Notes under the pieces: model-generated
Told to the model about the DNA's origin: nothing
Databases searched by the model: none
The model's input: the letters and a program-made list of their open reading frames with translations, nothing else
Program-made: the position numbers and the translations under genes
Part shown: piece after piece, positions 1 through 40,684 of the stretch
Layout: each line of letters opens with the position of its first letter
How positions within the stretch are numbered: the stretch's first letter is position 1
Origin: Clostridia bacterium
GTDB taxonomy: Bacteria > Bacillota > Clostridia > Christensenellales > Aristaeellaceae
Direction: 5' to 3'
Length of the DNA stretch: 64,000 bases
Assembly (NCBI GenBank): GCA_017410455.1
Contig: JAFQQT010000060.1
Span: 1 to 64,000, forward strand

Positions 1-100
<100 letters not shown>

Positions 101-15698: not shown

Positions 15699-15775
<77 letters not shown>

Positions 15776-15778
15776 CAT

Positions 15779-15852
15779 GGCTCGGTAGCTCAGTCGGTTA
15801 GAGCAACGGATTCATAACCCGTAGGTCGTAGGTTCGATTCCCACCCGAGCCA
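15779..15852 (+). tRNA. Elongator-type tRNA-Met (CAT), 3' CCA not encoded
   Basis: Acceptor GGCTCGG pairs with CCGAGCC; D-arm GCTC/GAGC; anticodon loop TTCATAA; T-arm GTAGG TTCGATT CCCAC. The anticodon stem (ACGGA/CCCGT) and the T-stem each contain one A-C mismatch. CCA is absent, the genome reading A then CTTG. A CAT anticodon could also be tRNA-Ile2 with a lysidine-modified C34, but the overall pattern looks like Met. Confidence 0.85.
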
Positions 15853-22178: not shown

Positions 22179-22223
22179 ACGCCTGCACCCCGCAGCGCCT
22201 CTGAATGCCATATGCCTTCCCAT

Positions 22224-22251
22224 GCCTGTACGCATTGCCGTGCAGGCTTTT
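22224..22251 (+). terminator. Rho-independent terminator of the AAA+ operon
   Basis: GCCTGTACG, six-base loop, CGTGCAGGC, then TTTT. It isolates the AAA+ operon from the polysaccharide operon. Confidence 0.85.
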
Positions 22252-22311
22252 GCTTCTATACGAAATACACAGAAAATCCAACGCAATTTTTTCGGAATCG
22301 TTTACATATCA

Positions 22312-22340
22312 TTGCACTTCCAGCCCCGCTGTGGTACAAT
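22312..22340 (+). promoter_or_regulatory. Sigma-A promoter of the polysaccharide operon
   Basis: TTGCAC (22312-22317), 17-base spacer, TACAAT (22335-22340). The leader of about 65 bases to the ATG at 22411 holds a small hairpin (CCGG-TACGAGG-CCGG) but no recognisable cyclic-di-GMP riboswitch. No other clear promoter or terminator was seen until 39317. Confidence 0.8.
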
Positions 22341-22410
22341 GTAACATGGTTTTCTTTATCTTGTAACCAACCGGTACGAGGCCGGAATCCTAACGAAGCA
22401 GGTGGTTTCC

Positions 22411-23976
22411 ATGCGCAGGACGGTATACATCTTCACCATCTTCATTCTGCTGTGCGGCATCGCGCTGGCAGCATACGCGCCCGACGGGCTGTCGATGGCC
22501 TTCATCATCGTGATGGAAGTGGTCGTTGCGCTGGGTGCGCTCTTTGGCGTGCTGCCGGCGATGCAGTATGCGCGCGGATTCCTCACAGGCGTCAGGGGCA
22601 TCGACCGCGCGGTGGAGAACCGCACCGGTTCCGCCTGGACGATGCTGGAAACGGAGGAGGACTTCTTCCATCAGGGGACGCTGGACGAGATTTTCCGCAG
22701 CTATCAGCAGAAGCTGAAGAGCCAGCGGGAATCCGGGCAGGTGCTCAGCGACGTGAGCGACTACATCAACGATGATGTGCTGGCACTGCACTCCTGGCAG
22801 TCCATCATCCTGCAGATCCCCGGCACTCTCACGGGCCTTGGCATCCTGGGCACCTTCGTGGGCCTGATCATCGGCATCCGCGGCATCGGCTTCAGCACCG
22901 TGGGCGCCGCGCTCACCAGCGTGCAGACGCTGCTGGGCGGCATTCAGGTGGCCTTCTACACCTCCATCTGCGGCGTGATCCTCTCGCTGCTGTTCAACAT
23001 CGTCTACCGCATGGCGTGGAACGTGATGATGCGCAACCTGGGCATCTTCACCGAGAGCTTCCACAAGAATGTGGTGCCCCCCGTGGCGGATCAGGCCCGC
23101 TACCGCGAGAGCCGCACCGCACGGCAGATCACCGAGCTCCTGGAGCGCCTGCCCCGCAATCAGGGCTTCTCCCTGGCCGGCGGCAGCCTTGGCGGAGCCC
23201 CCGTGGCCTCCGGCACCGACGCGGAGCAGATCCTCATGCCGCAGATCGTTTCCGCCCTGCGCGATGGTGAGTTCATCTTCCTCCTCCAGCCCCGGTACGA
23301 ACTCAACACCCGCAAGATCGTGGGCGCTGAGGCCCTGGTGCGCTGGAACCACAAGAAGCTGGGCCTGCTCTCCCCGGCGGTGTTCATCCCCGTGCTGGAG
23401 AGCAACGGCTACATCACCAAGCTGGACCAGTACATCTGGGAGCAGGTGTGCATCACGCTCCGCCGCTGGATCGACGAAGGCCTGCGCCCCATGCCCCTGT
23501 CCATCAACGTGACCAAGACGGACATCCTGGCCATGGACGTGGCGGATTGCTTCGAGAACCTGCTGAAGAAGTACCGCCTGCCGCCGCGCTCGCTGGAGAT
23601 CGAGATTGCCCAGAACGCCTACCTGCAGGCTGCCGAAGCCGTGACCGACACCGAGACCCGCCTGCGCGCCGCCGGCTTCCGCGTGGTGATGGACGGCTTT
23701 GACGGCGATTACATCCCCCTGGGCAACACCGCGGGCTTCCAGGCCGACGCGCTGAAGCTTGATCTGCGCCGCACCGATGGCTCTCCCGACACCCTGACCG
23801 CCGCCTTCGAGCAGGCGCGGGTGCTGAAGATGAACCTCGTGGCCGAGGGCATCGAGAACATGGAGCAGCTGGCCACACTGCGCAAGTGCGGCTGCACCGA
23901 GGGACAGGGCTTCTTCCTCTCCATGCCCGTGCCGCTGGATGAGTTCGAAGCCATGATGAATGGGGACAAAGCCTGA
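22411..23976 (+). CDS. MotA/ExbB-like proton-channel protein fused to a degenerate EAL domain
   Basis: A 521-residue fusion. Residues 1-50 hold two membrane helices. A helical linker (about 60-135) leads to a MotA/TolQ/ExbB channel region with LTGLGILGTFVGLIIGIRG (140-158) and a fourth helix (FYTSICGVILSLLFNIVYR, about 185). Residues about 275-515 are an EAL domain: E307-A-L is intact, and Asn in SINVTK, D428, K449 and E479 are kept. The second Asp of DDFG is Gly (MDGFD) and the conserved Glu of the TES-type motif is Gln (IEIAQN). It probably binds cyclic-di-GMP without hydrolysing it. The ATG at 22411 follows AGGTGG. Stop and next start overlap (TGATG). Confidence 0.85.
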   Translation: MRRTVYIFTIFILLCGIALAAYAPDGLSMAFIIVMEVVVALGALFGVLPAMQYARGFLTGVRGIDRAVENRTGSAWTMLETEEDFFHQGTLDEIFRSYQQKLKSQRESGQVLSDVSDYINDDVLALHSWQSIILQIPGTLTGLGILGTFVGLIIGIRGIGFSTVGAALTSVQTLLGGIQVAFYTSICGVILSLLFNIVYRMAWNVMMRNLGIFTESFHKNVVPPVADQARYRESRTARQITELLERLPRNQGFSLAGGSLGGAPVASGTDAEQILMPQIVSALRDGEFIFLLQPRYELNTRKIVGAEALVRWNHKKLGLLSPAVFIPVLESNGYITKLDQYIWEQVCITLRRWIDEGLRPMPLSINVTKTDILAMDVADCFENLLKKYRLPPRSLEIEIAQNAYLQAAEAVTDTETRLRAAGFRVVMDGFDGDYIPLGNTAGFQADALKLDLRRTDGSPDTLTAAFEQARVLKMNLVAEGIENMEQLATLRKCGCTEGQGFFLSMPVPLDEFEAMMNGDKA

Positions 23977-25688
23977 TGAAAGCAAACAAGCTGAAAAACC
24001 AGGAAGAGCTGAACATGTGGCAGCCCACGAGCGACCTGATGAGCGCGCTGATGTACATCCTGATGCTCATCGTGCTGCTGCTGGGGCTGTACCTGCTGCA
24101 GATTCCCGAAACAGACGAGGTGGACCCCTACCCGGGCGACCACTACGACGGCGAAGGCTGGCACGAGGATGGCGGCCTGACGCCCACCCCCAGCGCAACA
24201 CCCACCCCCACCCCCGACTGGGACGATGGCGGTGGCGGCGGCTGGTACAACGATGGCGGCTGGCCCAGCCCCACCGTGACGGTGACACTGACCCCCACGC
24301 CCACCATCACGCCCACCTGGCGGCCTGACAACGGCACCGGCGGCGGTGGTGGCGGCGGAAACGGCGGTGGCGACGGCCCCGGTGAAGAACCCGACAACGG
24401 CTTCAAGTCCGCCGTGTATGTCATGCTCATCGACGCGGAGACCGAGCGCACCATCAAGGTGGCGGACGTGCAGTTCGAGCTGTACTCCATGGATGGCGCG
24501 CTGCAGATCCTGAACACCTACTACCCCGAGAAGCTGACCTACCGCTCCTTCCAGACCACGGAGAGCGGCACGTTCTACCTGCCCGAGAAGCTGATGGCCG
24601 GTACTTATGAGCTGCACCAGCTGACCGAGCCCGCCGGATACGACGCCGCGCCCAATCAGGTCTTCGCCCTGGAGGACCTCTACGACTGGCCCGACCCCTA
24701 TGTGGTGCGCGTGCCCGTCTATCCCTGCCGCAACATCATCCGCGTGCAGCAGACGGACACGGAGACCGGCCTGCCCGTTCCCGGCGGCAGCTATGACGTC
24801 ATCTCCGTCAGCAACGTCATCACCGCCGATGGCACGCTGCGCTACCGCGCCGGCGAAACCGTGGCCACCATCGAATGCGATGAGAACGGCTACGGCGAGT
24901 CCCCGGAGATCTACCTGGGCGAATACCGCGTGGTGCAGTCCGCCATCCCGGCGTATTACGCCGCCCAGACAGCTGCCTTCACCACCACCGTCAACCGCAA
25001 GGACGACGGCACGCCCCCCGTCAACGCGGTCCTGTGCGACCGCACCCGCGTGACCCTGACCCTGGCGGACGAGCTCTACCCCGCCCGCGGTATCGCCGGC
25101 GCGACCTTCACCGTCACCAGCGACGCCCCCGGCGCGGCGCCTGCCGAGGTCACCACCGACGCGCATGGCCGGATCGTGCTCGACGCGCTGGACAAGGGCG
25201 TCACCTACCGCATCGTGCAGCGCAGCACCACCGGCCGCTACCGCGCCGACGCTGACGTTCACACCGTGGCGGTAACGGCGGATGGCTTCATCGGCAGCGC
25301 GCCCCAGGCGGAGATCAGCGTGGTCAACCGCGTGCTGCGCGTGTCCCTGGGCGTGACGGACGAGCTCTCCAGCGTGCAGGTGCCCGGCGTGAGCCTGGCG
25401 CTGTACAACAGCTCCGACGAGCTGATGACCACCTGGACCTCCACCTCCTCCGGTCTGCTGCTGGAAACCCTCTCAGAGGGCAGCTACTACATCGTCAAGG
25501 ACGGCGACACGGAAAAGCACTACCCCTTCACCGTGCGCGACGAGGCGAAGATCCAGACCTTCAACGTCCACACCACCTATGTGCTGCAGTACGTGCTGCT
25601 GGGCGCAGGCGCCCTTGCCGTGACCGGCGGCGGCGTTGGTGCAGCTGTCCTGCTGCGCCGCAGGAAGCGTAAGGCCACGCAAAACTGA
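23976..25688 (+). CDS. MotB-like membrane protein with Cna-B/SpaA-like extracellular domains
   Basis: A 570-residue protein. The N-terminal helix (about 20-42) with MWQPTSDLMSALMYILML matches the MotB/ZorB pattern W-----D-M-A-M, where the Asp (D20) is the proton-carrying residue. A Thr/Pro- and Gly-rich linker (about 55-140) follows, then four beta domains resembling Cna-B/SpaA repeats (about 145-235, 250-330, 350-430, 445-530; for example VQFELYSMDG and AGTYELHQLTEPAGY). A C-terminal helix with an RRRKRK tail ends the protein; there is no LPXTG motif. The usual OmpA-like peptidoglycan-binding domain is absent. The start overlaps the MotA-EAL stop. Confidence 0.8.
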   Translation: MKANKLKNQEELNMWQPTSDLMSALMYILMLIVLLLGLYLLQIPETDEVDPYPGDHYDGEGWHEDGGLTPTPSATPTPTPDWDDGGGGGWYNDGGWPSPTVTVTLTPTPTITPTWRPDNGTGGGGGGGNGGGDGPGEEPDNGFKSAVYVMLIDAETERTIKVADVQFELYSMDGALQILNTYYPEKLTYRSFQTTESGTFYLPEKLMAGTYELHQLTEPAGYDAAPNQVFALEDLYDWPDPYVVRVPVYPCRNIIRVQQTDTETGLPVPGGSYDVISVSNVITADGTLRYRAGETVATIECDENGYGESPEIYLGEYRVVQSAIPAYYAAQTAAFTTTVNRKDDGTPPVNAVLCDRTRVTLTLADELYPARGIAGATFTVTSDAPGAAPAEVTTDAHGRIVLDALDKGVTYRIVQRSTTGRYRADADVHTVAVTADGFIGSAPQAEISVVNRVLRVSLGVTDELSSVQVPGVSLALYNSSDELMTTWTSTSSGLLLETLSEGSYYIVKDGDTEKHYPFTVRDEAKIQTFNVHTTYVLQYVLLGAGALAVTGGGVGAAVLLRRRKRKATQN

Positions 25689-25708: not shown

Positions 25709-27334
25709 ATGAGAAACGGCGGAATCCAGATTCGCGTCAGCGATATGCTCTTCATCCTCAGGAAGCGCTGGAAGACCATCGCGGGGCTGACCCTGCTGGG
25801 GCTGCTGTTCGGCCTTGCCCTTTCGGGCATGACCTATGTGCAGACCTCCTTCCAGACCTTTGAGATCACCGGCTCCTTCGCCATCACCACCCAGAACGAG
25901 GAGGGCCGTTACATCAACGGCTCCCTCGCCGCCACCAACAATGACTTCCACCTCGCCGAGGACATGGTGGACGCCGTGCGCTACGTCATCCTCAGCGAAA
26001 AGGTGCTGGGCGACGTCATCACCGATCAGTCGCTGCTGGGCGTTACGGTGGATCAGCTGCGCAGCAACCTGACCCTGACGCAGTACAAGGACACGCAGAT
26101 CCTCGAAATGACCCTGACCTGGCGCACGCCGTCGGAGGGCCTGGAGATCTGGAACGCGCTGTGCGCCGTGGCCACCCGTCAGATCCCCGCGGTGCTGATG
26201 GTCGGCTCGCTGGAGCCCATCAATGCCGCGCAGGCGCTGCAGGTGGGCGTAGGCGGCTCGGCCAGCCTGCAGCTGTGGATGCTGCTGGCGCTGCTGGGCT
26301 TTGCCGCCGGCGTGGGCATTGCGCTGATGGAGCTGCTCGTGCACCCGACGCTGAACAACGTGCGGGATGTGGAAACGGTGCTGGGCCTGGAGACCATCGG
26401 CGTCATCCCCCAGGACAACCGCTTCTTCCGCCAGCAGGGCTCGCTCCTATCCCCGGAGAGCGCCTCCTCTGCCGTGGTGCAGAGCTACAGCGCGGCGGCT
26501 TACATCCTGCGCAACCGCCTGGGCACCAGGGAGCAGCACCACTGCTTCTTCGTCACCTCCGCGGCAACCGGCGAGGGCAAGACCTCCGCAGCGGCCAACC
26601 TGGCCGTTCAGCTCTCCGACATGGGGCACCGCACGCTGCTGATCGACTTCAACACCCGCAATCCCGGCCTGGGCGCGCTCTTCCTGCCTGAGGTGGACTA
26701 CGCCCACTCCCTCAACGCCCTCTATCGGGGCGAGGCCACGCTGGACGAAGCCATCACCACCCTGACGGGCTACCTGGACCTGCTGCCCACCGTGCTGGAG
26801 CACAACCCCATCCCCATGGACAGCGCCGTGGAGGACCTCTTCCGCCAGCTGACGGAGAAGTACGCTTACGTCATCATCGACGCCGGCCCCGTGGGGCAGG
26901 TGTCCGACACGCTGAGCCTGAACCGCGTGGCCAGCGCCGTGCTCTTCGTGGTGGGTTACGACTCCGCCACCCTGCCGGACATCCAGGCCTCCATCGAGAA
27001 GCTGGACAAGAGCGGCACCCGCGTGGTAGGCTGCATCGTCAACGGCGTGACCCATGGCAAGGCCCGCCGCGACGATACGCCCCGCCCCCGCCGCGTGAAG
27101 GCTGCGCCCCCGGCCGAGCCCTTCGCGCCCACGCCGGATCCCCAGCTGATCGACACGCTGAACCCGGCTCCCGCGCCCGCCCCTTCCGCCGCTCAGGCCA
27201 AGCCCCGCGACGTGATGGCGGAGCTGATCGGCCCCCGGCAGACGCCCCCCGCCAGCGATGACGAGGTGATGAACGCCCTGCTGAACATGGGTGGCACCCA
27301 GTCTTCCGACGCGACCCCGCCGGAGGCGACATGA
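25709..27334 (+). CDS. Wzz/BY-kinase-like polysaccharide co-polymerase
   Basis: A 541-residue protein. An N-terminal Wzz part has two membrane helices (about 25-45 and 190-212). A P-loop domain follows with Walker A ATGEGKTS (K291), a Walker A' region LLIDFNTRNPG and Walker B YVIIDAGP. BY-kinases regulate polymer length and export. The usual DXDXR of Walker A' reads D-F-N-T-R, and the Pro-rich C-terminal tail (about 450-541) contains no tyrosine, so classical tail autophosphorylation is not possible. It follows the MotB-like gene by 20 bases and overlaps the next start. Confidence 0.85.
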   Translation: MRNGGIQIRVSDMLFILRKRWKTIAGLTLLGLLFGLALSGMTYVQTSFQTFEITGSFAITTQNEEGRYINGSLAATNNDFHLAEDMVDAVRYVILSEKVLGDVITDQSLLGVTVDQLRSNLTLTQYKDTQILEMTLTWRTPSEGLEIWNALCAVATRQIPAVLMVGSLEPINAAQALQVGVGGSASLQLWMLLALLGFAAGVGIALMELLVHPTLNNVRDVETVLGLETIGVIPQDNRFFRQQGSLLSPESASSAVVQSYSAAAYILRNRLGTREQHHCFFVTSAATGEGKTSAAANLAVQLSDMGHRTLLIDFNTRNPGLGALFLPEVDYAHSLNALYRGEATLDEAITTLTGYLDLLPTVLEHNPIPMDSAVEDLFRQLTEKYAYVIIDAGPVGQVSDTLSLNRVASAVLFVVGYDSATLPDIQASIEKLDKSGTRVVGCIVNGVTHGKARRDDTPRPRRVKAAPPAEPFAPTPDPQLIDTLNPAPAPAPSAAQAKPRDVMAELIGPRQTPPASDDEVMNALLNMGGTQSSDATPPEAT

Positions 27335-28020: not shown

Positions 28021-29313
28021 ATGTCCCCGGCTGATTCCCGGCCCCATGCGCCTCTGAAGCGTACATCCCCCGTGGCGCGCCACGCGATAGTGCTGCTGGT
28101 GTTCCTCTTCGCGCTGGGCTTTCCCGGCAGGCTCGCTGACCTTGCCGGCGGTTCCCGGCTCAGCATGCTCATGCAGTATGCCGTTTTCGCGCTGCAGATC
28201 GTATTCATGCTCATCACCAGCGGCGACGACCTGATGGAGATGAAGGTCATCGACCTGAAGCGGGAGTACACCCCCATGTATCTGCTGCTGGGCGTGTTCT
28301 TCGTCCTCTCCATGCTGGTGACGCACGACCACGGCGCTCAGTTCATCTCCTGCCTGCGCTTTTCGGTGACAGGCCTTTTCGCGTTGTGGGTGGTGAACTG
28401 GTACGATGTGAAGCATATCCTGCTCTTCACCGTCCGGGCGCAGGCCATCATCGTGGCGCTGTGCCTGGTGTTCATGTTCCTGCCCGGCAGCGGCTGGGCC
28501 ACAGTGGATGGCGCGCGCTGCTTCGTGGGCATCTTCCCGGGCAAGAACGTCTGCGGTGCACAGCTCGCTTTCGGGCTGACGATGCAGGTGGCTCTGATGC
28601 GCCTGTACTGGGCCGAGGGCCGGCAGCCGGGGGTGCTCTTCTATGCGATGCTGCTGTGCCAGCTGGTGATGCTGCTGCTCACCCGCGCCATGGGCTCGCT
28701 GATCTCCGCCGGCCTGCCCATCGCCGCGCTCCTGCTGATGCACGAGAAGCGGGGGGTGCTGCGCCGCATCCCCCTGGGGTGGATGTATGTGCTGGGCAGC
28801 GTGGGGTTCCTCATCTTCGCGCTGAACCTGATGCCCCTGCTGGAGCCGTTGCTGACCGCCCTGGGCAAGGACGCGACCCTCACCGGCCGCATCCCCATGT
28901 GGCAGGAGCACATCTCCAACATGCTCACCAGCCACACCTTCACCGGCTATGGCTTCGGCATGTTCTGGGAGAATACAGAAGCCGTGGCAGTCTTCCACGC
29001 CGCCTTTGACGAGAACTCCTGGGCCGGCACCATGACCACCGGCGCGCACAACGAGCTGATCGAGCTGTGGCTGGACGTGGGCCTCATCGGCATGGGCGTG
29101 TACTTTGTCATGCTCATCCTCGCCTTCCGCCGCGTGTGGGAAGCGCCCACCGAGACCTACCTTTTCTGCCTGGCGGTGCTGCTGGGCGTGTTCATCAAGG
29201 GGCTGACGGAGCGCACCCACTCCACCGCCAGCTACTGGACGCTGTATCTGTTCCTGGCCTGCGCGCTGGCGCTGAAGGCGAGAGCCACGCCGCCGCCCGC
29301 CGCCATCCGATAA
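28021..29313 (+). CDS. O-antigen ligase/polymerase family (Wzy-like) membrane protein
   Basis: A 430-residue polytopic protein with about 11 helices. The O-antigen ligase/Wzy signature region includes TLTGRIPMWQEH (about 287-298), GYGFGMFW and HNELIELWLDVGLIGMGVY. In this cluster it is expected to polymerise lipid-linked repeat units on the outer face of the membrane. The ribosome binding site AAGGAGG precedes the ATG; neighbouring genes are 12 and 21 bases away. Confidence 0.87.
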   Translation: MSPADSRPHAPLKRTSPVARHAIVLLVFLFALGFPGRLADLAGGSRLSMLMQYAVFALQIVFMLITSGDDLMEMKVIDLKREYTPMYLLLGVFFVLSMLVTHDHGAQFISCLRFSVTGLFALWVVNWYDVKHILLFTVRAQAIIVALCLVFMFLPGSGWATVDGARCFVGIFPGKNVCGAQLAFGLTMQVALMRLYWAEGRQPGVLFYAMLLCQLVMLLLTRAMGSLISAGLPIAALLLMHEKRGVLRRIPLGWMYVLGSVGFLIFALNLMPLLEPLLTALGKDATLTGRIPMWQEHISNMLTSHTFTGYGFGMFWENTEAVAVFHAAFDENSWAGTMTTGAHNELIELWLDVGLIGMGVYFVMLILAFRRVWEAPTETYLFCLAVLLGVFIKGLTERTHSTASYWTLYLFLACALALKARATPPPAAIR

Positions 29314-29334: not shown

Positions 29335-30795
29335 ATGGCGACGCCCCGCGCCCTTTCCGCCCTGCTGGATCGCTTCCGCAGCGCCTCCCCCGCCGTGAAG
29401 GCCTCCATGGCCTATATGGTCTGCACCTTCCTGCAGAAGGGTGTGTCCCTGCTGACCACGCCCATCTTCACCCGCCTGCTGACCACCGAGCAGTACGGCT
29501 ACTACAATGTGTACAACTCCTGGCTGGCGGTGATCAAGATCTTCTCCACCCTGATGCTGGCGGGGACCGTGTACATGCAGGCGGTGGTCAAGTTCCAGGA
29601 CGACCGCGACCGCATGACCAGCGCCGTGGCGGGCCTGGGCACGCTGACCACGCTGATCGTGACGCTGGTGTACATCCTCTTCCGCGAGCAGATCAACCAG
29701 CTCATGGGCATCGATACGCTGATCATGACCTGCATCCTCATCACCGCCTGGGCAGAGCTGATCCTGGACCTCTGGGCGGTGCAGCAGCGCGTGGATTACG
29801 CGTGGAAGCAGCTGGTCGCCCTGACGCTGGCCGTGACGGTATTGAAGCCCGTGACGGGTGTGATTGCCGTGGTGGCGACGGAGGTCTTCAAGGCCGAGGC
29901 GCGCATCGTTTCCTCCGTGGCGGTGGACGTGGTGGCCTACAGCGGCTTCTTCGTGCTGTTCCTCCGCCGGGGCAAGACGCTCTTCGACCGCAGATACTGG
30001 GGTTACTTCCTCGCCTTCAGCATCCCGCTGGTGCCCCACTTCCTCACCCGCATCATCCTCAACCAGTGCGATAAGCTGATGATCCAGAAGATGGTATCCC
30101 TGGACGCGGCGGGCATCTACAGCCTCGCCCACAACCTTGCCTGGATGCTGACGCTGGTCACCAACGCGCTGCTGAACACCATCAACCCCTGGATCTTCCA
30201 GCGCATCAAGGCCCGCGAGTTCGATAAGATCGGCGGCGCGGCGAACCTGACCTCGGCGCTGGTGGCGGGCGCGGGCCTGTGCCTGACCTGCGTGGCTCCG
30301 GAGGTGGTGCGCATCTTTGCGCCCGCGGAGTACCACGAGGCCATCTGGATCATTCCCCCGCTGGTGGCCAGCGTGTATTTCACCTATCTGTACAGCCTGT
30401 TCTCCGATTTTGAGTACTACTACGAGGCCAAGCGCTCCATCCTCTTCGCCTCCATCGCGGGCGGCATTGTGAACATCGCGCTGAACTACGTCTGCATCCT
30501 GCGCTGGGGATATCTGGCCGCCGGATGGACGACCATGGCCTGCTTCGTGTTCCTGGCCGGGGCGCACTTCATCGGCATGCGCCGCATCCTGCGCAAAAAC
30601 GAGCCCGGCGAAAAGGGCGTCCGCCTGCAGCCGATCCTGCTGATCACCGCGGCCTTCCTGGCGCTGTCCGCCCTGTGCATGCTGACCTACGATCTGCCGC
30701 TGCTGCGCTATGCGGCGCTGCTGGTTTCCGGCGCGGTCCTTCTGTGGCAGCGCAGGCGCATCCTGACCCCGCTGATGGCCCTGCGCAAGAAATAA
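29335..30795 (+). CDS. Wzx-type oligosaccharide flippase
   Basis: A 486-residue membrane protein with about 14 helices, of the polysaccharide transporter group of the MOP superfamily. The N terminus ASMAYMVCTFLQKGVSLLTT and TPIFTRLLTTEQYGYYNVYN are classic Wzx. It translocates undecaprenyl-linked repeat units before polymerisation by the Wzy-like protein encoded just upstream. AGGAGG precedes the ATG. Confidence 0.92.
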   Translation: MATPRALSALLDRFRSASPAVKASMAYMVCTFLQKGVSLLTTPIFTRLLTTEQYGYYNVYNSWLAVIKIFSTLMLAGTVYMQAVVKFQDDRDRMTSAVAGLGTLTTLIVTLVYILFREQINQLMGIDTLIMTCILITAWAELILDLWAVQQRVDYAWKQLVALTLAVTVLKPVTGVIAVVATEVFKAEARIVSSVAVDVVAYSGFFVLFLRRGKTLFDRRYWGYFLAFSIPLVPHFLTRIILNQCDKLMIQKMVSLDAAGIYSLAHNLAWMLTLVTNALLNTINPWIFQRIKAREFDKIGGAANLTSALVAGAGLCLTCVAPEVVRIFAPAEYHEAIWIIPPLVASVYFTYLYSLFSDFEYYYEAKRSILFASIAGGIVNIALNYVCILRWGYLAAGWTTMACFVFLAGAHFIGMRRILRKNEPGEKGVRLQPILLITAAFLALSALCMLTYDLPLLRYAALLVSGAVLLWQRRRILTPLMALRKK

Positions 30796-30814: not shown

Positions 30815-31615
30815 ATGTCCATCACCAGCAAGCTCAAAAAGCTGGGCAGATCCGCCTACTGGGCGGGTTTTGACCTGCTGCACCAGCGCACCCACCGCCA
30901 CGCCGGCTACGACGTGCACTATGTGTTTCACCGCGGCACATCCGACGCGCTGGTGGTGGTGTTCTCCGCCTTCGCGGCGGGGCTGAAGCCCACCTACAAC
31001 TACGTCCGCACCCTCTGGGGCAGGACGGACGCGCACCTGCTCTTCATCCGGGACGACTTCGTCAGCCTGCCCGGCGGCGGCGCGTATTACATCGGCCACA
31101 GGGGCGACAGCCACGGCCGCAACGCGGTGCTGTCCCTCATCCGACGCATCCGGGAGAAGGCCGGGGCGAAGCGCGTCATCGGCGTAGGCTCCAGCAAGGG
31201 CGGCACGGCTGCGCTGCTCTTCGGCTGCATGCTGCCCATGGACGCGGTCATCATCGGCGCGCCCCAGTACTACATCGGCCGGTATATGCAGGAGCACAAG
31301 CCGGATTCGCTGGCCCTGCTGGCCACCAGCGGCGGCACGCCCACGCAGGAGGATATCGCCTGGCTGGACGCGCTCCTCCCCCGGGCCGTTCAGGCCTGCA
31401 AGGCGCCTCCCGCCGTCCACATCCACTATTCCGACCGGGAGCACACCTACGCAGAGCACATCTCCGACATGCTGCGCGACCTGAAGGAGCACGCATTCCC
31501 CGTCACCGAGGACGTGGCGGACTACGAAAAGCACACCGACGTGTACCTGTATTACGTCCCCTACCTGGAGCGAACCCTTCCCGCCATCCTGAGCGAAAGG
31601 AGCAACCCGACATGA
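30815..31615 (+). CDS. Putative alpha/beta-hydrolase in polysaccharide operon
   Basis: A 266-residue cytoplasmic protein. GVGSSKGGTAALLFG (about 128-142) is a nucleophile-elbow motif (G-X-S-X-G-G) preceded by a beta strand, as in serine hydrolases and the Asp2-like group. The late Asp/His residues of a triad cannot be assigned with certainty. It may modify or deacylate the repeat unit. The stop overlaps the start of the GT2 gene. Confidence 0.6.
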   Translation: MSITSKLKKLGRSAYWAGFDLLHQRTHRHAGYDVHYVFHRGTSDALVVVFSAFAAGLKPTYNYVRTLWGRTDAHLLFIRDDFVSLPGGGAYYIGHRGDSHGRNAVLSLIRRIREKAGAKRVIGVGSSKGGTAALLFGCMLPMDAVIIGAPQYYIGRYMQEHKPDSLALLATSGGTPTQEDIAWLDALLPRAVQACKAPPAVHIHYSDREHTYAEHISDMLRDLKEHAFPVTEDVADYEKHTDVYLYYVPYLERTLPAILSERSNPT

Positions 31616-32646
31616 TCAGCGTGGTCGTACCCGTCTACAACATGGGCGACAGCCTGGAAAAGTGCGTCGCCTCCATCCTGACGCAGGAGGGCGCGGATTT
31701 CGAGGTCATTCTCGTCAACGATGGCTCCACCGATGGCAGCGGGGAGGTCTGCGACCGTCTGGCCGCAGGGGATCCCCGCGTGCGCGCCATCCATCAGGTG
31801 AACCAGGGCTCCGGCCCCGCCCGCAACCGCGGCCTTGCCGAGGCCTCCGGCGCGTATGTGTACTTCCCCGATGCGGACGACCTGCTGGCCCCCGGCGCCC
31901 TCAAACGCATGCAGGAGGCCGTGGCGGAATCCGGCGCGGATCTGCTGGTCTTCGGCTACGAGGTGCTCAGCGAAGACGGCAAGCCCCTGCGCCGCCACGT
32001 CTACCCGGCCCTCATCGGCGTGGGCGAGGCCATGCGCCGGGATTACGGCGACTACGCCGCGCAGAAGAAGAAGCTGGGCATCCAGGGCGCGCCGTGGAAC
32101 AAGCTCTTCTCCACCGCCGTCATCCGGGAGAATGCCGTCGAATACCCGCCCCTGCGCCGCCATCAGGACGAGGGCTTCATCGCCCGCTACATGTGCCACG
32201 CGGTGAAGGTGCAGTTCATCCCCGAGGTGCTCTACACCCACTACGCCAACTCCCGCGCGCTGGAGTGGCGGAAATTCCCGGTGGACTACGCGGCCATCGT
32301 CCGCCAGCTCTGGCAGAACCGCCAGGAGACCATCCTCACCTGGAACCCGGCGGATACCCGCACGCAGCAGATCCTCCGCCAGGAGTACACGGACAACACC
32401 ATCAAGGCCATCGAGCTGAGCTTCTCCCCCAAGCACGACAAGACCGCCGCGCAGCACCTCGCCTGGGCGAAGGAGCAGATCGGGGCCTCCGGCATCTGCG
32501 AGTTCCCGATTTATGATGACTACAGCCGCTACAAGAAGATCGTCCTGCGCCTGCTGCATGGCGGGCATTACCGCCTGGCCCTGGCCGTGATGCGCGGCAA
32601 GCTCCTGCTGGAGCAGCTGGGCGCAAAGGGCGGCAAGCACAAGTAA
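31612..32646 (+). CDS. Family 2 glycosyltransferase
   Basis: A 344-residue GT-A enzyme. The N terminus ISVVVPVYNMGDSLEKCVAS, the VNDGSTDGSGEV segment and the DXD-type PDADD motif (about 83-87) are standard for GT2. It transfers a sugar from a nucleotide donor to the growing lipid-linked unit on the cytoplasmic face; specificity is unknown. Helices near the C terminus may contact the membrane. Confidence 0.93.
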   Translation: MISVVVPVYNMGDSLEKCVASILTQEGADFEVILVNDGSTDGSGEVCDRLAAGDPRVRAIHQVNQGSGPARNRGLAEASGAYVYFPDADDLLAPGALKRMQEAVAESGADLLVFGYEVLSEDGKPLRRHVYPALIGVGEAMRRDYGDYAAQKKKLGIQGAPWNKLFSTAVIRENAVEYPPLRRHQDEGFIARYMCHAVKVQFIPEVLYTHYANSRALEWRKFPVDYAAIVRQLWQNRQETILTWNPADTRTQQILRQEYTDNTIKAIELSFSPKHDKTAAQHLAWAKEQIGASGICEFPIYDDYSRYKKIVLRLLHGGHYRLALAVMRGKLLLEQLGAKGGKHK

Positions 32647-32668: not shown

Positions 32669-33433
32669 ATGCTGTATTTCGGCGTGACGCTGCGCTGCAA
32701 GGCCGTGGCGAAGAACTGGGAGCATGTCGTACGGGATTTCCACCGGACGCTGCGCTCCATCTGCGCCCAGACCGACCCGGATTTCCGCGTGCTGGTCGCC
32801 TGCCACGAGATCCCTGATATGGAGGGCGGCTACGACCCCCGCGTGGAGTTCCTGCCGGCGGACATCCCCTTCCCCACCAGTGCCCATGAGATGATGCAGG
32901 ACAAGGGCTACAAGCTCTCCATGATCGGTAAACGCCTCCGCGAGCTGGGCGGCGGCTACACGATGATCGTCGATGCGGACGACCTGATTTCAAACCGCGT
33001 GGCTGAATATGTCAACGCCCATCCCGGGCAGAACGGCTTCGCGCCCAAATACGGCTATGTGCATGTGATGGGCGAGAAGGTGGTGCGCCGCACCCTCCAC
33101 CCCGACCAGATCTGCGGCTCCTGCATCATCGTCAACTACACGGTGGACGACCTGCCCGCGGAACTCCCCGCCTCCCCGAAGGACGAATCCGCCAAGGGCT
33201 ACATCCTCCGCAAGGCCCACCCGACCATCCGCCCCCATATGGCCTCACTGGGCCGCCCGCTGGCGCTGCTGCCCTTCCCCGCCACGGTCTACATCCGCGG
33301 CACCGGCGATAACCACTCCATGCTCGGCGGCGGGCAGCTGGGCATCAAGCGCCGCCTGGAGCAGCTGCTGCGCCGGGGCATCCCGCTGAAGAAGGTCGCC
33401 ACTGAGTTTGGCATGGAGGATTTCCGTGGCTGA
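32669..33433 (+). CDS. Putative glycosyltransferase (GT-A type)
   Basis: A 254-residue protein. VVRDFHRTLRSICAQTDPDF at the N terminus and TMIVDADDLISNRV (DXD-like metal site, about 95-100) resemble the putative rhamnosyltransferase group of small GT-A enzymes. The ribosome binding site AGGAGG precedes the ATG. It ends inside the start of the acyltransferase gene. Donor and acceptor are unknown. Confidence 0.72.
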   Translation: MLYFGVTLRCKAVAKNWEHVVRDFHRTLRSICAQTDPDFRVLVACHEIPDMEGGYDPRVEFLPADIPFPTSAHEMMQDKGYKLSMIGKRLRELGGGYTMIVDADDLISNRVAEYVNAHPGQNGFAPKYGYVHVMGEKVVRRTLHPDQICGSCIIVNYTVDDLPAELPASPKDESAKGYILRKAHPTIRPHMASLGRPLALLPFPATVYIRGTGDNHSMLGGGQLGIKRRLEQLLRRGIPLKKVATEFGMEDFRG

Positions 33434-34415
33434 AAAGAAGCGTTACGCCCTGCTGGACGTGCTGCGTGTAGCGGCCATCCTGCTGGTGCTCAACTCCCAT
33501 TTCGACCCGCTCTACCCCATCCCGGCGCTGGCCACCGGCGGCGCGGCGGGCAACGGGCTGTTTTTCGTGCTGAGCGGGTACTGCCTGAAGCTGCAGCCGG
33601 GCTTGCTGCGCCACATGGGCCGGCGGGCCGCGCGGCTCTACCCGGGGGTGTGGATCGCCTTCATCGCCCAGCTGATCCTCGGCGGCAAGGCCATCACCGG
33701 CGTCGGCGACGCCTTCACGCAGCTGATCTGGCCCACGGCCTTCTGGTTCGTGGGGGCGATCCTGCTCTTTGATGCGCTGCTCTACGGGCTGGAGAAGCTC
33801 GATTTCACCCGGCATTTCGGCCGGTTCACCCTGGTGATGGCCATCCTCTACTTCGCCGCCTACCTCCTCATCGTGGACAGGACCCGCTGGAGCGTGGAGG
33901 AAGCCGGTCTGGCAACGCCCCAGCAGGCCTTCAAGCTGATCTACTGCTTCCACATCTACGCCATGGGCTACTGGCTCAGAAAGCGCGGCATTCCCGTATG
34001 GGCGCAGGGCCGCACGGCGCTGACCTTCGCCATCGCGGCGGGGCTGTTCCTGTTCTCCTTTGCCTTCAAGCTGGTGCTGAACCGCTTCCCGGCCACCATG
34101 CCCCTGCAGTTCCTCACGCAGATCGCGATCGTCGGCTTCACCTTCGGCGCGGTCATCTGCGCCCTTGGCTGGGAGGAATGGTGGACGCGCGTATCTGCCC
34201 CATGGCTGCGCAAGGCCATCGCGGCCTTTGCCGCGGTGTCGCTGGAGATGTACCTGGTGCAGTTCCCCATCATCAGCATGGGCAAGGCGCTTCCCTTCCC
34301 GGCGAATATCGCGGTGGTCGTGCCCGTGACGGTGCTCTTCGCCTTCCTGCTGCACGCGGCGGACGGGTTCCTCTCCCGCCGCCTCATCGCCTTCATCCCA
34401 CCCAAGAAAGGATGA
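33426..34415 (+). CDS. Acyltransferase family 3 membrane protein
   Basis: A 329-residue polytopic membrane protein with about ten helices. The start region RYALLDVLRVAAILLVLNSH contains the conserved R and H of the family (acetyl transfer to sugars). The GTG at 33426 is chosen because ATGGAGG is about seven bases upstream; it overlaps the previous gene by eight bases. It probably O-acetylates the polysaccharide. Confidence 0.85.
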   Translation: MAEKKRYALLDVLRVAAILLVLNSHFDPLYPIPALATGGAAGNGLFFVLSGYCLKLQPGLLRHMGRRAARLYPGVWIAFIAQLILGGKAITGVGDAFTQLIWPTAFWFVGAILLFDALLYGLEKLDFTRHFGRFTLVMAILYFAAYLLIVDRTRWSVEEAGLATPQQAFKLIYCFHIYAMGYWLRKRGIPVWAQGRTALTFAIAAGLFLFSFAFKLVLNRFPATMPLQFLTQIAIVGFTFGAVICALGWEEWWTRVSAPWLRKAIAAFAAVSLEMYLVQFPIISMGKALPFPANIAVVVPVTVLFAFLLHAADGFLSRRLIAFIPPKKG

Positions 34416-34421
34416 TCCATC

Positions 34422-35405
34422 ATGATTATCACCCAGACGCCCTTCCGCATGTCCTTCTTCGGAGGCGGCACGGACATGGAGAGCCACTTCCGCGAGCATG
34501 GCGGCGCGGTGCTTTCCGCCACCTTCGACAAGTACTGCTATGTGCAGGTGCGCCACCTGCCGCCCTTCTTTGAGTACCGGTCGGAGCTGATCTACTCCCA
34601 CACCGAGCGCATCACCAGCACCGAGGACATCCGCCACCCGCTGATCCGCAACGCCATGATGATGCTGGGCATGCACGACCTGCGCGTCACCTATGATGCG
34701 GACCTGCCCGCCCGCAGCGGCCTGGGTACCTCCTCCAGCTTCGCGGTGGGCATGCTGGGCGCCTTCCATGCCCTGAGGGGCGATGCCGTGACCAGGCAGA
34801 TGCTGGCGGATGAGGCCATCCATCTGGAGCGCAACATCTGCCGGGAGGCTGGTGGCTGGCAGGATCAGGTCGCCGCAGCCTTTGGCGGCCTGAACCGCAT
34901 TGACTTCGGCCCCGAGGGCTACACCGTCCACCCGCTGGACATTCCCATGGAGCGCAAGACGCAGCTGAGCGACAACCTGCTGATGTTCTTCACCGGCTTC
35001 ACGCGCCTGTCCTGCGAGGTGCAGGAGATGAACGCCCGCTCCGCCCCCGGCAACAAGACCGCCACACTCCGGGAGATGCACCAGCTGGTGGACGAGGCAC
35101 AGGCCGTGCTGACCACCCCCGGTGCAGATCTGGACGATTTCGGCCGTCTGCTGGACGTGACCTGGCGGCTCAAGAAGCAGACCGGCGGCAGCATCTCCAC
35201 CAGTGTCATCGACGATATGTACATGCGTGGCATGGCCGCAGGCGCGCTGGGCGGCAAGCTCCTGGGCGCGGGCAACGGCGGCTTCCTGGTGTTCTATGTC
35301 CCGCAGGAGCGCCGCGAGCGCGTCCGCCGCGCCATGGGCAACCTGCTGGAAGTCCCCTTCCAATTCGAATACGAGGGCTCCAAGGTGCTCTATCACCACG
35401 CCTGA
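34422..35405 (+). CDS. hddA: D-glycero-alpha-D-manno-heptose-7-phosphate kinase
   Basis: A 327-residue GHMP kinase. N-terminal TPFRMSFFGGGTDMESHF and the ATP-binding LPARSGLGTSSSFAVGML match HddA. The C-terminal GAGNGGFLVFYVP is the third GHMP motif. It phosphorylates heptose 7-phosphate at C1 in the GDP-heptose route. gmhA and the HddC-GmhB fusion follow directly, completing the pathway. Confidence 0.88.
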   Translation: MIITQTPFRMSFFGGGTDMESHFREHGGAVLSATFDKYCYVQVRHLPPFFEYRSELIYSHTERITSTEDIRHPLIRNAMMMLGMHDLRVTYDADLPARSGLGTSSSFAVGMLGAFHALRGDAVTRQMLADEAIHLERNICREAGGWQDQVAAAFGGLNRIDFGPEGYTVHPLDIPMERKTQLSDNLLMFFTGFTRLSCEVQEMNARSAPGNKTATLREMHQLVDEAQAVLTTPGADLDDFGRLLDVTWRLKKQTGGSISTSVIDDMYMRGMAAGALGGKLLGAGNGGFLVFYVPQERRERVRRAMGNLLEVPFQFEYEGSKVLYHHA

Positions 35406-35420
35406 CAAGGGAGGTTCACC

Positions 35421-36716
35421 ATGAAGGCAGTCATCATGGCCGGCGGTCGGGGCACGCGCCTGGCCTCCGTCGCCCACGACATTCCCAAACCCATGGTGCC
35501 TGTGGGCGGCATGCCGGTGCTGGAGTTCGAGCTGCAGATGCTGCGCGAGCAGGGCTTCACCGATATCATCATGACCGTTGGCCATCTGGGCCAGATCATC
35601 ATGGATTACTTCGGCGATGGCAGCGGCGTTTCCCCCGCCACGGGCAAGCCCTTCGGCGTGCACATCGAGTACTTTGTGGAGGCGCAGCCCCTGGGCAACG
35701 CCGGTGCACTGCTGCTGCTGCGCGAGCAGCTGACGGAGGATTTCCTTTTGCTCAACGGCGACGTGGTGTTCAGCGCGGACCTGCGCCGCATGGTGGCCTT
35801 CCACCGGGAGAAGGCCGCGCTGGCGACGCTCTTCGTACACCCCAACAGCCATCCCTGCGACAGCGCGCTGCTGCTGGAAGCGGCAGACGGCTCCGTCGAC
35901 CGCTGGCTGACCAAAGAAGAACCCCGCCCGGAATACTATCACAACGTCATCAACGCCGGGCTGCATGTGCTGAGCATCCGCGTGATTGATGACCTGCTGG
36001 CAGCGGGCGTCACCGGCAAACTGGACCTCGACCGGCAGGTGCTGCGCCCCATGGCAGGCACGGGCCGCATGGTCTGCTACCACAGCCCGGAGTACGTCAA
36101 GGACATGGGCACGCCGGAGCGCCTCGAAGCCGTGCGGCAGGATTTCGCCTGCGGGCGGCTGCAGCGGGGCTCGCTGACCCACCGGCAGCGCGCCGTCTTC
36201 CTCGACCGGGACGGCACCATCAACGCCTTTGCCGGCCTGGTGTGCCGCACGGAGGATCTGCACCTGCTGCCCGGCGTGGCAGAAGCCATCAACCGGATCC
36301 ATGACGCGGGGTACCTCGCCATCGTCATCACGAACCAGCCGGTCATCGCCCGCGGCGACGTCACCTTCGACGGCCTGGATGAGATCCACCGCCGCATGGA
36401 GACCCTCCTGGGCCTGGAGGGCGCGTATATCGACGACCTCTTCTTCTGCCCCCACCACCCGGACAAGGGCTTCCCCGGCGAGCGTCCCGAATTCAAGATC
36501 CCCTGCACCTGCCGCAAGCCCCAGCCCGGCATGCTGCTGCAGGCTGCGGAGAAGTACAACATCGACCTCAGCCAGTCCTGGATGGTCGGCGACACCAGCC
36601 GAGACGTCGGCGCTGGCAAGGCCGCCGGCTGCCGCACGGCGCTGATCGGCACGGGCGATTACGGGCAGGACGCGACCGTCCCCACCCTGCTGGACTTCGC
36701 TCGCAGCCTCACCTGA
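35421..36716 (+). CDS. Fused heptose-1-phosphate guanylyltransferase (HddC-like) and GmhB-type HAD phosphatase
   Basis: A 431-residue two-domain enzyme. Residues 1-235 are a nucleotidyltransferase (MKAVIMAGGRGTRLASVAHD; LLLNGDVVFSAD). Residues about 250-431 are a HAD phosphatase with the D-X-D motif in VFLDRDGTINAF, the Cys/His zinc-type loop FFCPHHPD ... CTCRKPQPGML and the late MVGDTSRDVGAG, as in GmhB. The two activities, dephosphorylation of heptose bisphosphate and guanylylation of heptose 1-phosphate, are consecutive steps of GDP-heptose synthesis. The fusion is unusual; most bacteria encode them separately. Confidence 0.88.
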   Translation: MKAVIMAGGRGTRLASVAHDIPKPMVPVGGMPVLEFELQMLREQGFTDIIMTVGHLGQIIMDYFGDGSGVSPATGKPFGVHIEYFVEAQPLGNAGALLLLREQLTEDFLLLNGDVVFSADLRRMVAFHREKAALATLFVHPNSHPCDSALLLEAADGSVDRWLTKEEPRPEYYHNVINAGLHVLSIRVIDDLLAAGVTGKLDLDRQVLRPMAGTGRMVCYHSPEYVKDMGTPERLEAVRQDFACGRLQRGSLTHRQRAVFLDRDGTINAFAGLVCRTEDLHLLPGVAEAINRIHDAGYLAIVITNQPVIARGDVTFDGLDEIHRRMETLLGLEGAYIDDLFFCPHHPDKGFPGERPEFKIPCTCRKPQPGMLLQAAEKYNIDLSQSWMVGDTSRDVGAGKAAGCRTALIGTGDYGQDATVPTLLDFARSLT

Positions 36717-36737
36717 CACACGAAAGGAGCGTCCCCT

Positions 36738-37394
36738 ATGGCGACCCTCGAACCCCGCCTCACCCGGCACATCGATCTGCTCCTGCAGCGCTACCCGGCT
36801 TTGACCCCCATCCGCGACGAGCTGATCGCCGCCTACCTGATCATGCAGGAGAGCTATCAGCAGGGCGGAAAACTCCTTGTTGCGGGCAATGGCGGCTCTG
36901 CGGCGGACGCAGAGCACATCGTGGGCGAGCTGATGAAGCGTTTCAAGCTCCCCCGCCCGGTCTCCCCGGAGCTGGCTGCAAAGCTGACCGCCATCGACCC
37001 CGAGCGCGGCGCAGCGCTGGCCCAGTCCCTCGAGATGGGGCTGACCGCCATCTCCCTCCCTGCCCACGAGGCCTCCATCACCGCCTTCATCAACGATGTG
37101 GGCAGCGCGGACGTGTATGCCCAGCAGCTGCTGGGATACGCCCGCCCCGGCGACGTGTTCCTGGCCATCTCGACCTCCGGCAACAGCGAGAACATGATGC
37201 GTGCCATCGTGCTGGCCAAAGCCCTGGGCGTCAGGGTCATCGGCCTGACGGGCAAAACCGGCGGCAGGATGGCCCCGATGTGCGACGTGGCCGTCCACGC
37301 CCCGGAAACGGAAACCTATATGATCCAGGAATACCACCTGCCCATCTACCATTGCTGGTGCCTGATGCTGGAGGATTTCTTCTTCGGCAAATAA
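36738..37394 (+). CDS. gmhA: Sedoheptulose-7-phosphate isomerase
   Basis: A 218-residue SIS-domain protein. GNGGSAADAEHIVGELMKRF is diagnostic of GmhA, and STSGNSENMMRAI is the SIS phosphate-binding loop. It converts sedoheptulose 7-phosphate to D-glycero-D-manno-heptose 7-phosphate, the first step of the heptose pathway in this cluster. Length is slightly above the usual 195 because of an N-terminal extension. Confidence 0.93.
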   Translation: MATLEPRLTRHIDLLLQRYPALTPIRDELIAAYLIMQESYQQGGKLLVAGNGGSAADAEHIVGELMKRFKLPRPVSPELAAKLTAIDPERGAALAQSLEMGLTAISLPAHEASITAFINDVGSADVYAQQLLGYARPGDVFLAISTSGNSENMMRAIVLAKALGVRVIGLTGKTGGRMAPMCDVAVHAPETETYMIQEYHLPIYHCWCLMLEDFFFGK

Positions 37395-37412
37395 ACGCAG
37401 GAAGTGCATCTT

Positions 37413-38189
37413 ATGGATATGCAGAAGCAGCCCCTCATGGCGACCCATGTCAACAACCTGACCCTGCAGGAAACGGCGCAGGCCATCGGCCAGTTCATCG
37501 AAGAGCGCCGTCAGGCCTATATCGTCGAGGTCAACGTGGACGTGATGATCAGGATCGAGCACGACGCGGAACTCCGGCGCATCACCGACGCGGCCGACCT
37601 CGTCCTCGTGGACGGCCAGCCGCTGGTGTGGGTGTCAAAACTCTACCGCCGCCCGGTGAAGGAGAAAGTTTCCGGCTCCGACCTCTCCCTTGAGCTGTGC
37701 CGTATGGCAGCCGAACGCGGCTACACGATGTTCATCCTCGGCGGCCGGGAGGGCGTCGCCGAACAGGCAAAGGCGAATATGGAGGCGCAATACCCCGGTT
37801 TGCAGGTGGTGGGCACCTGCGCGCCGCCGCTGGGCTTTGAAAAGGACGAGGCCGAACTGGCAAAGGTGCGTCAGGCCATCTCCGCCGTCAGCCCGGACAT
37901 CGTGCTGTGCTGCCTGGGCTGCCCCAAACAGGAGAAGTGGATCGACGCGAACCACCGCGACATCGATGCACGCGTCTTCCTGTGCGCGGGAGCAACGGTG
38001 GACTTCCTCGCCGGGAATGTCAGGCGTGCCCCGGCGTGGGTCAGCCGCATCGGCATGGAGTGGTTCTACCGCTTCCTCAAGGAACCCAAACGCCTCTTCA
38101 GGCGCTATTTCATCGATGACATGCAGCTCTTCGGGCTGATTGTCAAGTACCGCCATCAGCGCGCCGGCAAAACGGAGGTGAGCGCATGA
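37413..38189 (+). CDS. WecG/TagA/CpsF family glycosyltransferase
   Basis: A 258-residue GT26 enzyme. Motifs DADLVLVDGQPLVW-like (AADLVLVDGQPLVWVSKL), KVSGSDLSLELC and the C-terminal PKQEKWIDANH and RAPAWVSRIGMEWFYRF are typical. Such enzymes transfer ManNAc or a similar sugar onto a lipid-linked GlcNAc at the membrane. The ATG at 37413 follows AGGAAG by eight bases. The stop overlaps the next start (ATGA). Confidence 0.92.
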   Translation: MDMQKQPLMATHVNNLTLQETAQAIGQFIEERRQAYIVEVNVDVMIRIEHDAELRRITDAADLVLVDGQPLVWVSKLYRRPVKEKVSGSDLSLELCRMAAERGYTMFILGGREGVAEQAKANMEAQYPGLQVVGTCAPPLGFEKDEAELAKVRQAISAVSPDIVLCCLGCPKQEKWIDANHRDIDARVFLCAGATVDFLAGNVRRAPAWVSRIGMEWFYRFLKEPKRLFRRYFIDDMQLFGLIVKYRHQRAGKTEVSA

Positions 38190-40636: not shown

Positions 40637-40684
40637 CGCACATCCTTCTTTCGATATATTGATCATCATACTTGGATTGTCATC

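Follow-up and report, generated by a model that had tools for sequence, protein, structure and literature searches.

The MotA-EAL and SpaB genes

The window analysed here, a stretch of 64,000 nucleotides from the Clostridia bacterium contig JAFQQT010000060.1, carries two genes, motA-EAL (gene 1) and spaB (gene 2, a working name), at the head of a same-strand gene run that extends to position 39304. Together they look like a candidate ion-driven stator with a cyclic di-GMP (c-di-GMP) domain, and their features are as follows.

22411..23976, + strand: motA-EAL (gene 1), predicted four-helix MotA/ZorA-type channel joined to an EAL domain; alternative GTG start at 22402
23251..23928, + strand: EAL domain of gene 1; DGFD replaces DDFG, remaining site residues retained
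23976..25688, + strand: spaB (gene 2), ZorB/MotB-type helix, Thr/Pro/Gly-rich linker, SpaA-like domains and C-terminal membrane helix
24033..24035, + strand: Asp20 codon of spaB, predicted ion-carrying residue
25581..25655, + strand: second (C-terminal) membrane helix of SpaB, residues 536-560, with a basic tail after it

A sequence-only reading of this DNA had described gene 1 as a MotA/ExbB-type channel fused to an EAL domain, and Pfam agrees, placing MotA_ExbB at residues 94-204 (expectation value, E, 2e-7, above the cut-off) and EAL at residues 284-509 (E 4.7e-50). These residues are numbered from the GTG at 22402, where the frame opens; the ATG at 22411 agrees with the start of several homologues. 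The one-base overlap that the same reading reported is present, with the spaB start falling on the last base of the gene 1 stop codon, and so are the SpaA-like domains that it saw in place of OmpA: Pfam matches SpaA (E 5e-24) and SdrD_B (E 1e-9) in the SpaB of the window and returns no OmpA match for it.

The channel part of gene 1, whose hydrophobic segments we read as four helices, finds its best matches among ZorA proteins. A ZorA model is the top channel match in the PADLOC defence library (E 6.6e-17), and ZorA models are also the top channel matches in the NCBI library. A channel profile built from seven rows matched solved ZorA chains at E 1e-13, the match covering positions 18-215 of 242. 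Six sequences are listed for this profile at E 0.01: four carry the name ZorA, the other two are called MotA/TolQ/ExbB proton channel domain proteins, and neither flagellar MotA nor ExbB occurs among the chain names. The pair was previously read as a stator of the kind of MotAB, ExbBD, TolQR, GldLM and ZorAB; the assignment as a stator-type pair stands, and profile scores suggest that its nearest kin are ZorAB-like pairs and not flagellar MotAB.

For comparison across genomes we took the best 80 of 412 confirmed loci from a channel-part scan of named genomes, of which 70 were stator-type and 10 of another type with OmpA partners (see below). The MotA/TolQ/ExbB-type channel has conserved Thr and Ser in two inner helices, as in the stator superfamily: T144, T151 and S188 do not vary among the 71 channels aligned, and T187 is found in 69, with Ser in the other two. 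Which of these residues would face the axle is predicted here from homology with ZorAB.

The N-terminal helix of SpaB is the candidate axle. It gives a weak ZorB match (E 8e-5) with D20 inside the helix, as had been claimed, and comparison with OmpA-type MotB helices by hhalign gives a probability of 97.6% with the Asp in register. Both Asp20 and Trp15 are present in all 68 aligned partners (window plus 67 loci); three of the partners (L111, L125 and L143) were missed by the helix profile and have the Asp by alignment. SpaB thus has the N-terminal helix with an essential-type Asp that stator partners have, and an additional C-terminal helix beside it. This second hydrophobic helix, at residues 536-560 and followed by RRRKRK, is one of two features absent from the sequence-only reading, the other being the loss of the second Asp from the EAL catalytic motif (see below). 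Among the 64 partners with a visible end, 62 have a C-terminal helix and 62 have a positive tail; the two partners without the helix, L122 and L142, are a shorter frame and a fragment. None of the 64 has an LPXTG-type sorting motif before the helix, and we rejected a sortase-anchored SpaA/pilin-type adhesin on this ground. SpaA was found in 18 of 18 partners from the family of the source genome and OmpA in none of them (E 0.01). Because of the C-terminal helix, the SpaA domains and the lack of OmpA, the SpaB axle is predicted not to be tied to the wall in the way of MotB or ZorB, and instead to leave and re-enter the membrane. The extracellular stalk proposed earlier therefore keeps its SpaA-like domains; with two membrane helices and no sortase motif it is probably anchored in the membrane by its two ends.

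Conservation and spread of the pair

We searched one set of 300 family genomes with both a channel-only and a partner profile. At E 1e-12 the channel profile matched 282 of the 300, stators included, from which we conclude that a ZorAB-like channel is widespread in the family; 20 genomes scored below E 1e-90, the next match lying at 1e-30. The partner profile matched 31 of the 300, and the 20 of these at E 1e-34 or better are exactly the same 20 genomes as for the channel, while the other 11 score lower (E 4e-23 to 3e-13) and lie in open frames that range from 686 to 2489 amino acids. The two genes are adjacent on one contig in 18 of the 20 genomes, among them G197, where the contig begins inside gene 1; in G229 and G290 the contig ends inside the pair, with the remainder at the end of another contig. 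The next gene after the partner is Wzc-like in all 19 stretches from other genomes that reach beyond the partner.

The named genomes, whose count overlaps with that of the family (L076 and L077, for example, are the loci of G012 and G002), give the same picture. An EAL domain is fused in 66 of the 70 stator loci; L114 is cut by a contig end, and L129, L143 and L145 have no EAL though the contig continues, each of the three being accompanied by both partner and Wzc-like gene. Of the 70 loci, 67 have the partner downstream and 64 a Wzc-like gene, and for every miss 756 bases or less of contig remain after gene 1. That the two genes adjoin and lie in polysaccharide loci, which the sequence-only reading proposed to check, is borne out wherever the contig allows, and since they stay neighbours across many genomes, the pair is more than a chance arrangement. 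Among the OmpA-type control loci, all nine partners seen have OmpA (the contig of L146 ends), and none of the ten loci has a Wzc-like gene within 3.5 kilobases (kb), nine of them having 4,999 bases or more downstream. Recurring neighbours of the stator pair are Wzc, VanZ and Wzy.

By record title the carriers include Faecalibacterium longum CLA-AA-H243, Brotaphodocola catenula CLA-AA-H274, Blautia sp. MSJ-9, Faecalibacterium sp. An121, Lachnoclostridium sp. Marseille-P6806 and many metagenome assemblies. The system appears to be rare more widely, with 2 of 396 genomes in a draw from the order (the source genome and a congeneric one) and 1 of 398 in a draw from the phylum (the source genome) at E 1e-40. 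In the family of Blautia sp. MSJ-9 (G1065), 12 of 299 genomes matched at E 1e-35; G1065 and G1195 did so at E 6e-100 or lower, and the remaining ten at E 8e-43 to 9e-36, which is the level of OmpA-type pairs. As the order, phylum and family draws were sampled differently, these rarities are approximate. No full-length match was found at E 1e-60 among 72,556 plasmid records, where two partial hits are annotated as GGDEF-domain phosphodiesterases, and a close-relative search gave no match on viral contigs.

The EAL domain as a probable c-di-GMP receptor

In EAL enzymes, both Asp residues of the DDFG motif bind catalytic metals, as described in the available part of PMC5301497. Our alignment of 67 EAL domains (window plus 66 loci) has no Asp at the second of these positions, which is Gly in 54, Asn in nine and Ser in four. 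Of seven comparison EALs from the same genome or genus, six have Asp there and one divergent domain has Asn. The two metal-binding Asp residues of a phosphodiesterase are thus not present together, and the missing second Asp disfavours an active phosphodiesterase. Nine other site residues are all retained in 54 of the 67 domains, the window included, with position 401 counted as Glu or Asp. The set was chosen partly from the EAL literature and partly from the alignments, and it is a signature of residues and no measure of binding. Of the 13 exceptions, eight form one clade (support 100/99), three of them titled Ruminococcus, in which most of the site residues seen are gone and the stator residues are kept; the remaining exceptions comprise three domains with a single change each, L109, which has lost two residues, and L120, which is truncated by a contig end. 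Because the second DDFG Asp is absent in 67 of 67 domains while 54 retain the nine other residues, that is, the site without the full catalytic set, the EAL domain is probably a c-di-GMP receptor rather than an enzyme, one that some lineages have given up.

A c-di-GMP-I riboswitch before the operon in some relatives

A second link to c-di-GMP came from Rfam, which places a c-di-GMP-I riboswitch immediately before the operon in L106. In a search of 49 genomes, covering 50 of the 70 stator loci, riboswitches scored above the cut-off in 18 genomes and stood at the operon in 9 of the 50 loci, directly before motA-EAL in eight and before vanZ-motA-EAL in L115; by chance, 50 windows of 250 bases would together yield about 0.002 riboswitches. 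The placement follows from the coordinates and holds in the scan of the loci themselves. In the eight (L106, L110, L113, L124, L126, L130, L132 and L139, the last barely above the cut-off) the riboswitch ends 57-107 bases before the channel domain.

In seven of the nine, folding pairs the 3' end of the aptamer into a hairpin that precedes a U-run, and ligand binding should therefore block termination, so that the riboswitch is predicted to be an on-switch. In L126 a complementary stretch was seen by eye only, without a U-run, and in L115 the overlap was not seen. A pattern scan for a terminator after the aptamer found one in L130 and L132, none in L106, and in L126 one on the other strand only. 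Further c-di-GMP-I riboswitches lie a few kb from the stator operons of four loci (L110:3711-3798, L113:4438-4534, L126:7437-7534 and, on the minus strand, L139:7016-7109).

Channel tree and order of events

A tree of 89 channel parts included ten paralogues, among which the partner of the source genome's paralogue alone was checked for OmpA. OmpA-type pairs and the widespread paralogues form one side of this tree (support 100/98) and the stators the other. The three stators without EAL fall outside the EAL clade (92/95), the fork joining L129 to that clade having values of 93/87; one genome, G1061, has both forms. Because the versions without EAL branch outside, the EAL domain was probably a later addition to an older motor, and the tree is suggestive of a unit of motor, SpaA partner and Wzc that is older than the c-di-GMP domain; we grade this order as suggestive since L143 and L145 are long branches. 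The switching by c-di-GMP proposed in the sequence-only reading thus keeps its link, through the EAL site residues and the riboswitches of some relatives, and looks like an added layer, three relatives having no EAL.

Operon and surroundings

Downstream of spaB the same-strand run continues with genes for polysaccharide synthesis and export; the last entry below is a hairpin that lies before gene 1.

25709..27334, + strand: Wzc-like gene, Wzz-type N-terminus and tyrosine-autokinase-type ATPase; 541 amino acids
27331..28008, + strand: VanZ-like membrane protein
28021..29313, + strand: Wzy_C/O-antigen-ligase-type polymerase
29335..30795, + strand: Wzx-type flippase (Polysacc_synt)
30815..31615, + strand: weak Asp2-like protein, score under the curated cut-off
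31612..32646, + strand: family 2 glycosyltransferase
32669..39304, + strand: further genes, namely an unassigned protein of 254 amino acids, acyltransferase, GHMP kinase, nucleotidyltransferase+HAD, SIS isomerase, and WecG/TagA and group 1 glycosyltransferases
22224..22247, + strand: terminator-like hairpin ahead of gene 1, separating the operon from the genes upstream of it; a single hit where shuffled sequence gives a mean of 0.6, weak alone

Wzc/Wzz, Wzy, Wzx and glycosyltransferases are present together, which identifies a Wzx/Wzy polysaccharide cluster and agrees with the earlier placement of the pair in a polysaccharide locus. The set of GHMP kinase, nucleotidyltransferase-HAD and SIS genes is similar to the heptose pathway. 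A promoter scan upstream of gene 1 gave no match.

In two relatives, L095 and L127, Wzc itself carries SpaA-like pieces similar to the neighbouring SpaB (E 4e-26 and 4e-18), a hint either of shared contacts of Wzc and SpaB or merely of local duplication. The open reading frames are 776 (L095) and 666 (L127) amino acids long, with the resemblance in the C-terminal part and, in L127, a hydrophobic stretch after it. Such a topology is hard to explain, as the kinase part is expected in the cytoplasm. Wzc-like proteins are longer elsewhere as well, with 790 amino acids in L079 (extra hydrophobic stretches, by eye), 947 in L090 (acidic C-terminal repeats, by eye) and 1192 in L088 (noted by length only), against 541 in the window.

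Before the operon, at 18597-22178, lie a Clp-type AAA+ protein and two unassigned proteins (276 and 283 amino acids); this trio was found again in one of 15 other family stretches with at least 3.6 kb upstream, that of the close relative G012. Elsewhere in the window are a sugar transferase (Bac_transf) with a fused N-terminal HD domain (39365-40669, minus strand), the 5' end of a 16S ribosomal RNA gene at the window edge (1-100, minus strand) and two transfer RNA genes (15699-15852, plus strand). The source genome, 92% complete, encodes three GGDEF and three EAL domains, and the only MotA_ExbB genes found in it are motA-EAL and that of one OmpA-type pair, on which ground a flagellar stator was rejected.

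A possible motor for polysaccharide export

The domain make-up, the homology of channel and axle helix, the conserved ion-path residues, the gene neighbours, the loss of a catalytic Asp and the placement of riboswitches are all seen in the sequence itself. We consider it moderately probable that they reflect an ion-driven membrane motor of the 5:2 type that belongs to the Wzx/Wzy polysaccharide machine and is tuned by c-di-GMP. A more specific proposal, which we put forward tentatively and with somewhat less confidence, is that of a dedicated rotary motor for polysaccharide export in bacteria of the Gram-positive type, in which a SpaB axle anchored in the membrane by its two ends would work on the polymer made by Wzc/Wzy, and c-di-GMP would govern the motor through the EAL ring and its expression through the riboswitch.

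How such a motor would be assembled, how ions would flow, how ligand would bind, in which direction control would run and what would be moved are inferred as follows. Five MotA-EAL subunits would form the wheel, with a ring of five cytoplasmic EAL domains below the membrane, and two SpaB N-terminal helices the axle, Asp20 carrying the ion past the Thr and Ser of the wheel; this 5:2 arrangement, with the SpaA-like domains above the membrane, is predicted because of homology. The second SpaB helix would re-enter the membrane, so that the axle may be held by the membrane, and perhaps also by the adjacent Wzc or Wzy, and not by peptidoglycan. Ion flow would turn the wheel against the axle, and the movement would be applied to growing or freshly exported polysaccharide, possibly to release chains, to move them through the wall or to spread them over the surface; that the motor acts with Wzc and Wzy on the polymer is suggested by gene order. 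c-di-GMP bound to the catalytically crippled EAL ring would set the timing of motor engagement and, in some relatives, may also raise operon expression through the riboswitch.

Several observations weigh against this reading or narrow it. With Glu482 added to the site residues, the EALs that keep all of them fall to 47 of 67, the window included, and with strict Glu at position 401 as well to 33 of 67. Given the eight degenerate EALs of one clade and the three relatives without EAL, c-di-GMP sensing is not general. Half of the riboswitch-bearing genomes (9 of 18) have no riboswitch at the stator locus, and the window has none by gathering score, with none at E up to 1 in 21300-23000. Pfam finds no known wall- or sugar-binding module in SpaB. 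Constant adjacency points to a shared job and not to physical contact. Evolutionary distances of MotA, SpaB and Wzc correlate with one another (0.88-0.93 over 59 loci), but these values carry no species-tree control and are not used as support.

The same parts could also run in reverse, as a surface or tension sensor in which contact of the SpaA stalk with polysaccharide or a surface would open the ion channel and the EAL ring would relay this to c-di-GMP or to Wzc. Stator-type proteins can report load, an EAL domain sits at the cytoplasmic end, and the operon is tied to c-di-GMP in some relatives; however, with the second catalytic Asp absent from all 67 EALs the domain probably cannot change c-di-GMP itself, and the three relatives without EAL retain channel, SpaB and Wzc, so we think a sensor rather unlikely. 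We rate slightly lower still a former stator pair that is now a passive membrane scaffold, holding Wzc and reading c-di-GMP. SpaB has no wall-binding domain and does have a second helix, and Wzc itself bears SpaA-like pieces in two relatives, all of which would suit a scaffold; it is disfavoured by the invariance of the Asp, which, like the invariant or nearly invariant Thr and Ser, persists across divergent lineages and would not be needed in a passive structure.

A motor for gliding or sliding on secreted polysaccharide, compared with Agl-Glt of Myxococcus, would make use of the stator, the external stalk and the secreted polymer and has that precedent, yet the recurring neighbours are Wzc, VanZ and Wzy, an argument that is itself weak since no search covered motility genes, Glt-like proteins or moving adhesins; we judge such a motor improbable. 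By far the least probable is an anti-phage system of the Zorya type. The closest channel families are indeed ZorA models, but their scores are under the ZorA cut-offs (best 57.6 against 100 bits), PADLOC finds no ZorC, ZorD or ZorE among the six window proteins scanned, the partner has no OmpA-type peptidoglycan-binding domain, EAL replaces the long ZorA tail and the neighbours are polysaccharide genes. The sub-cut-off scores and the lack of zorC/D/E among those six proteins led us to reject Zorya defence.

We know of no energy source for the export of Wzy-type polysaccharide through a thick cell wall beyond synthesis itself. A stator beside Wzc and Wzy would, if the motor reading is true, provide such a source and bring to the 5:2 motor family a new output, a new type of axle and a c-di-GMP gate. 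Coat building in the gut bacteria that carry the pair may be aided by a motor not described so far, and its occurrence in named gut bacteria, apparently cultured isolates by their record titles, makes the system testable, with Asp20 offering a clean test mutation. The matrix of a Faecalibacterium prausnitzii strain has been linked to milder colitis in a model, according to a review (PMC12413058).

Comparison with known systems

The sequence-only reading knew of no described system with this pairing, and we likewise found none: no MotA-EAL fusion and no stator in a Wzx/Wzy operon is described among the matches listed in our literature search, subscription papers and preprints lying outside its scope. 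By term search, a paper on stator evolution (PMC12505986) does not mention EAL or polysaccharide, and a review of 5:2 motors (PMC9389320) does not mention EAL, polysaccharide or c-di-GMP.

Among the closest known systems are the OmpA-type ZorAB-like pairs (L021, at G000:C93, in the source genome, and L147-L155), which are also two-gene pairs with homologous channel and axle helix. They differ in lying on the other side of the channel tree, in their OmpA partner and in having no EAL and no Wzc neighbour found. The pair of the source genome (L021:4756-7367, near position 110,000 of G000:C93) has a long cytoplasmic tail and adjoins what by eye appear to be lysine-pathway genes. To our knowledge, none of the receptors LapD, FimX and PdeB is fused to an ion-channel protein, and the AglRQS-Nfs machine is not known to have EAL or SpaA parts.

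ZorAB of Zorya defence, the nearest channel sequence family, is a 5:2 ion-driven motor in which the axle Asp of ZorB packs against a ring of Ser and Thr, D24 (type I) being required for defence and D21 being its counterpart in type II (PMC11890865, seen in part). It shares with the present pair an axle helix with Asp against Ser/Thr; however, ZorA has a long cytoplasmic rod where an EAL domain stands here, ZorB has a peptidoglycan-binding domain in place of SpaA domains and a second membrane helix, and the neighbours are zorC/D/E instead of polysaccharide genes. In GldLM and ExbBD, too, a pentamer surrounds a dimeric axle, which exerts its action on external partners; the axle domains, partners and hosts are others (PMC9389320, in its accessible part). 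For the EAL domain, the likeness is to LapD and FimX, where catalysis-free EAL domains serve as c-di-GMP receptors (PMC5301497), and to PdeB of Lactobacillus acidophilus, a degenerate EAL receptor in a polysaccharide-linked operon of a Gram-positive (PMC6123363, partial text). In Myxococcus xanthus, AglRQS with Nfs transports spore-coat glycan, a case of a MotAB-type motor working on exported polysaccharide, albeit in a Gram-negative envelope and with the separate Nfs complex (available part of PMC3858216). By analogy, AglRQS-Nfs would be the nearest functional precedent for the motor proposed here, though differently built.

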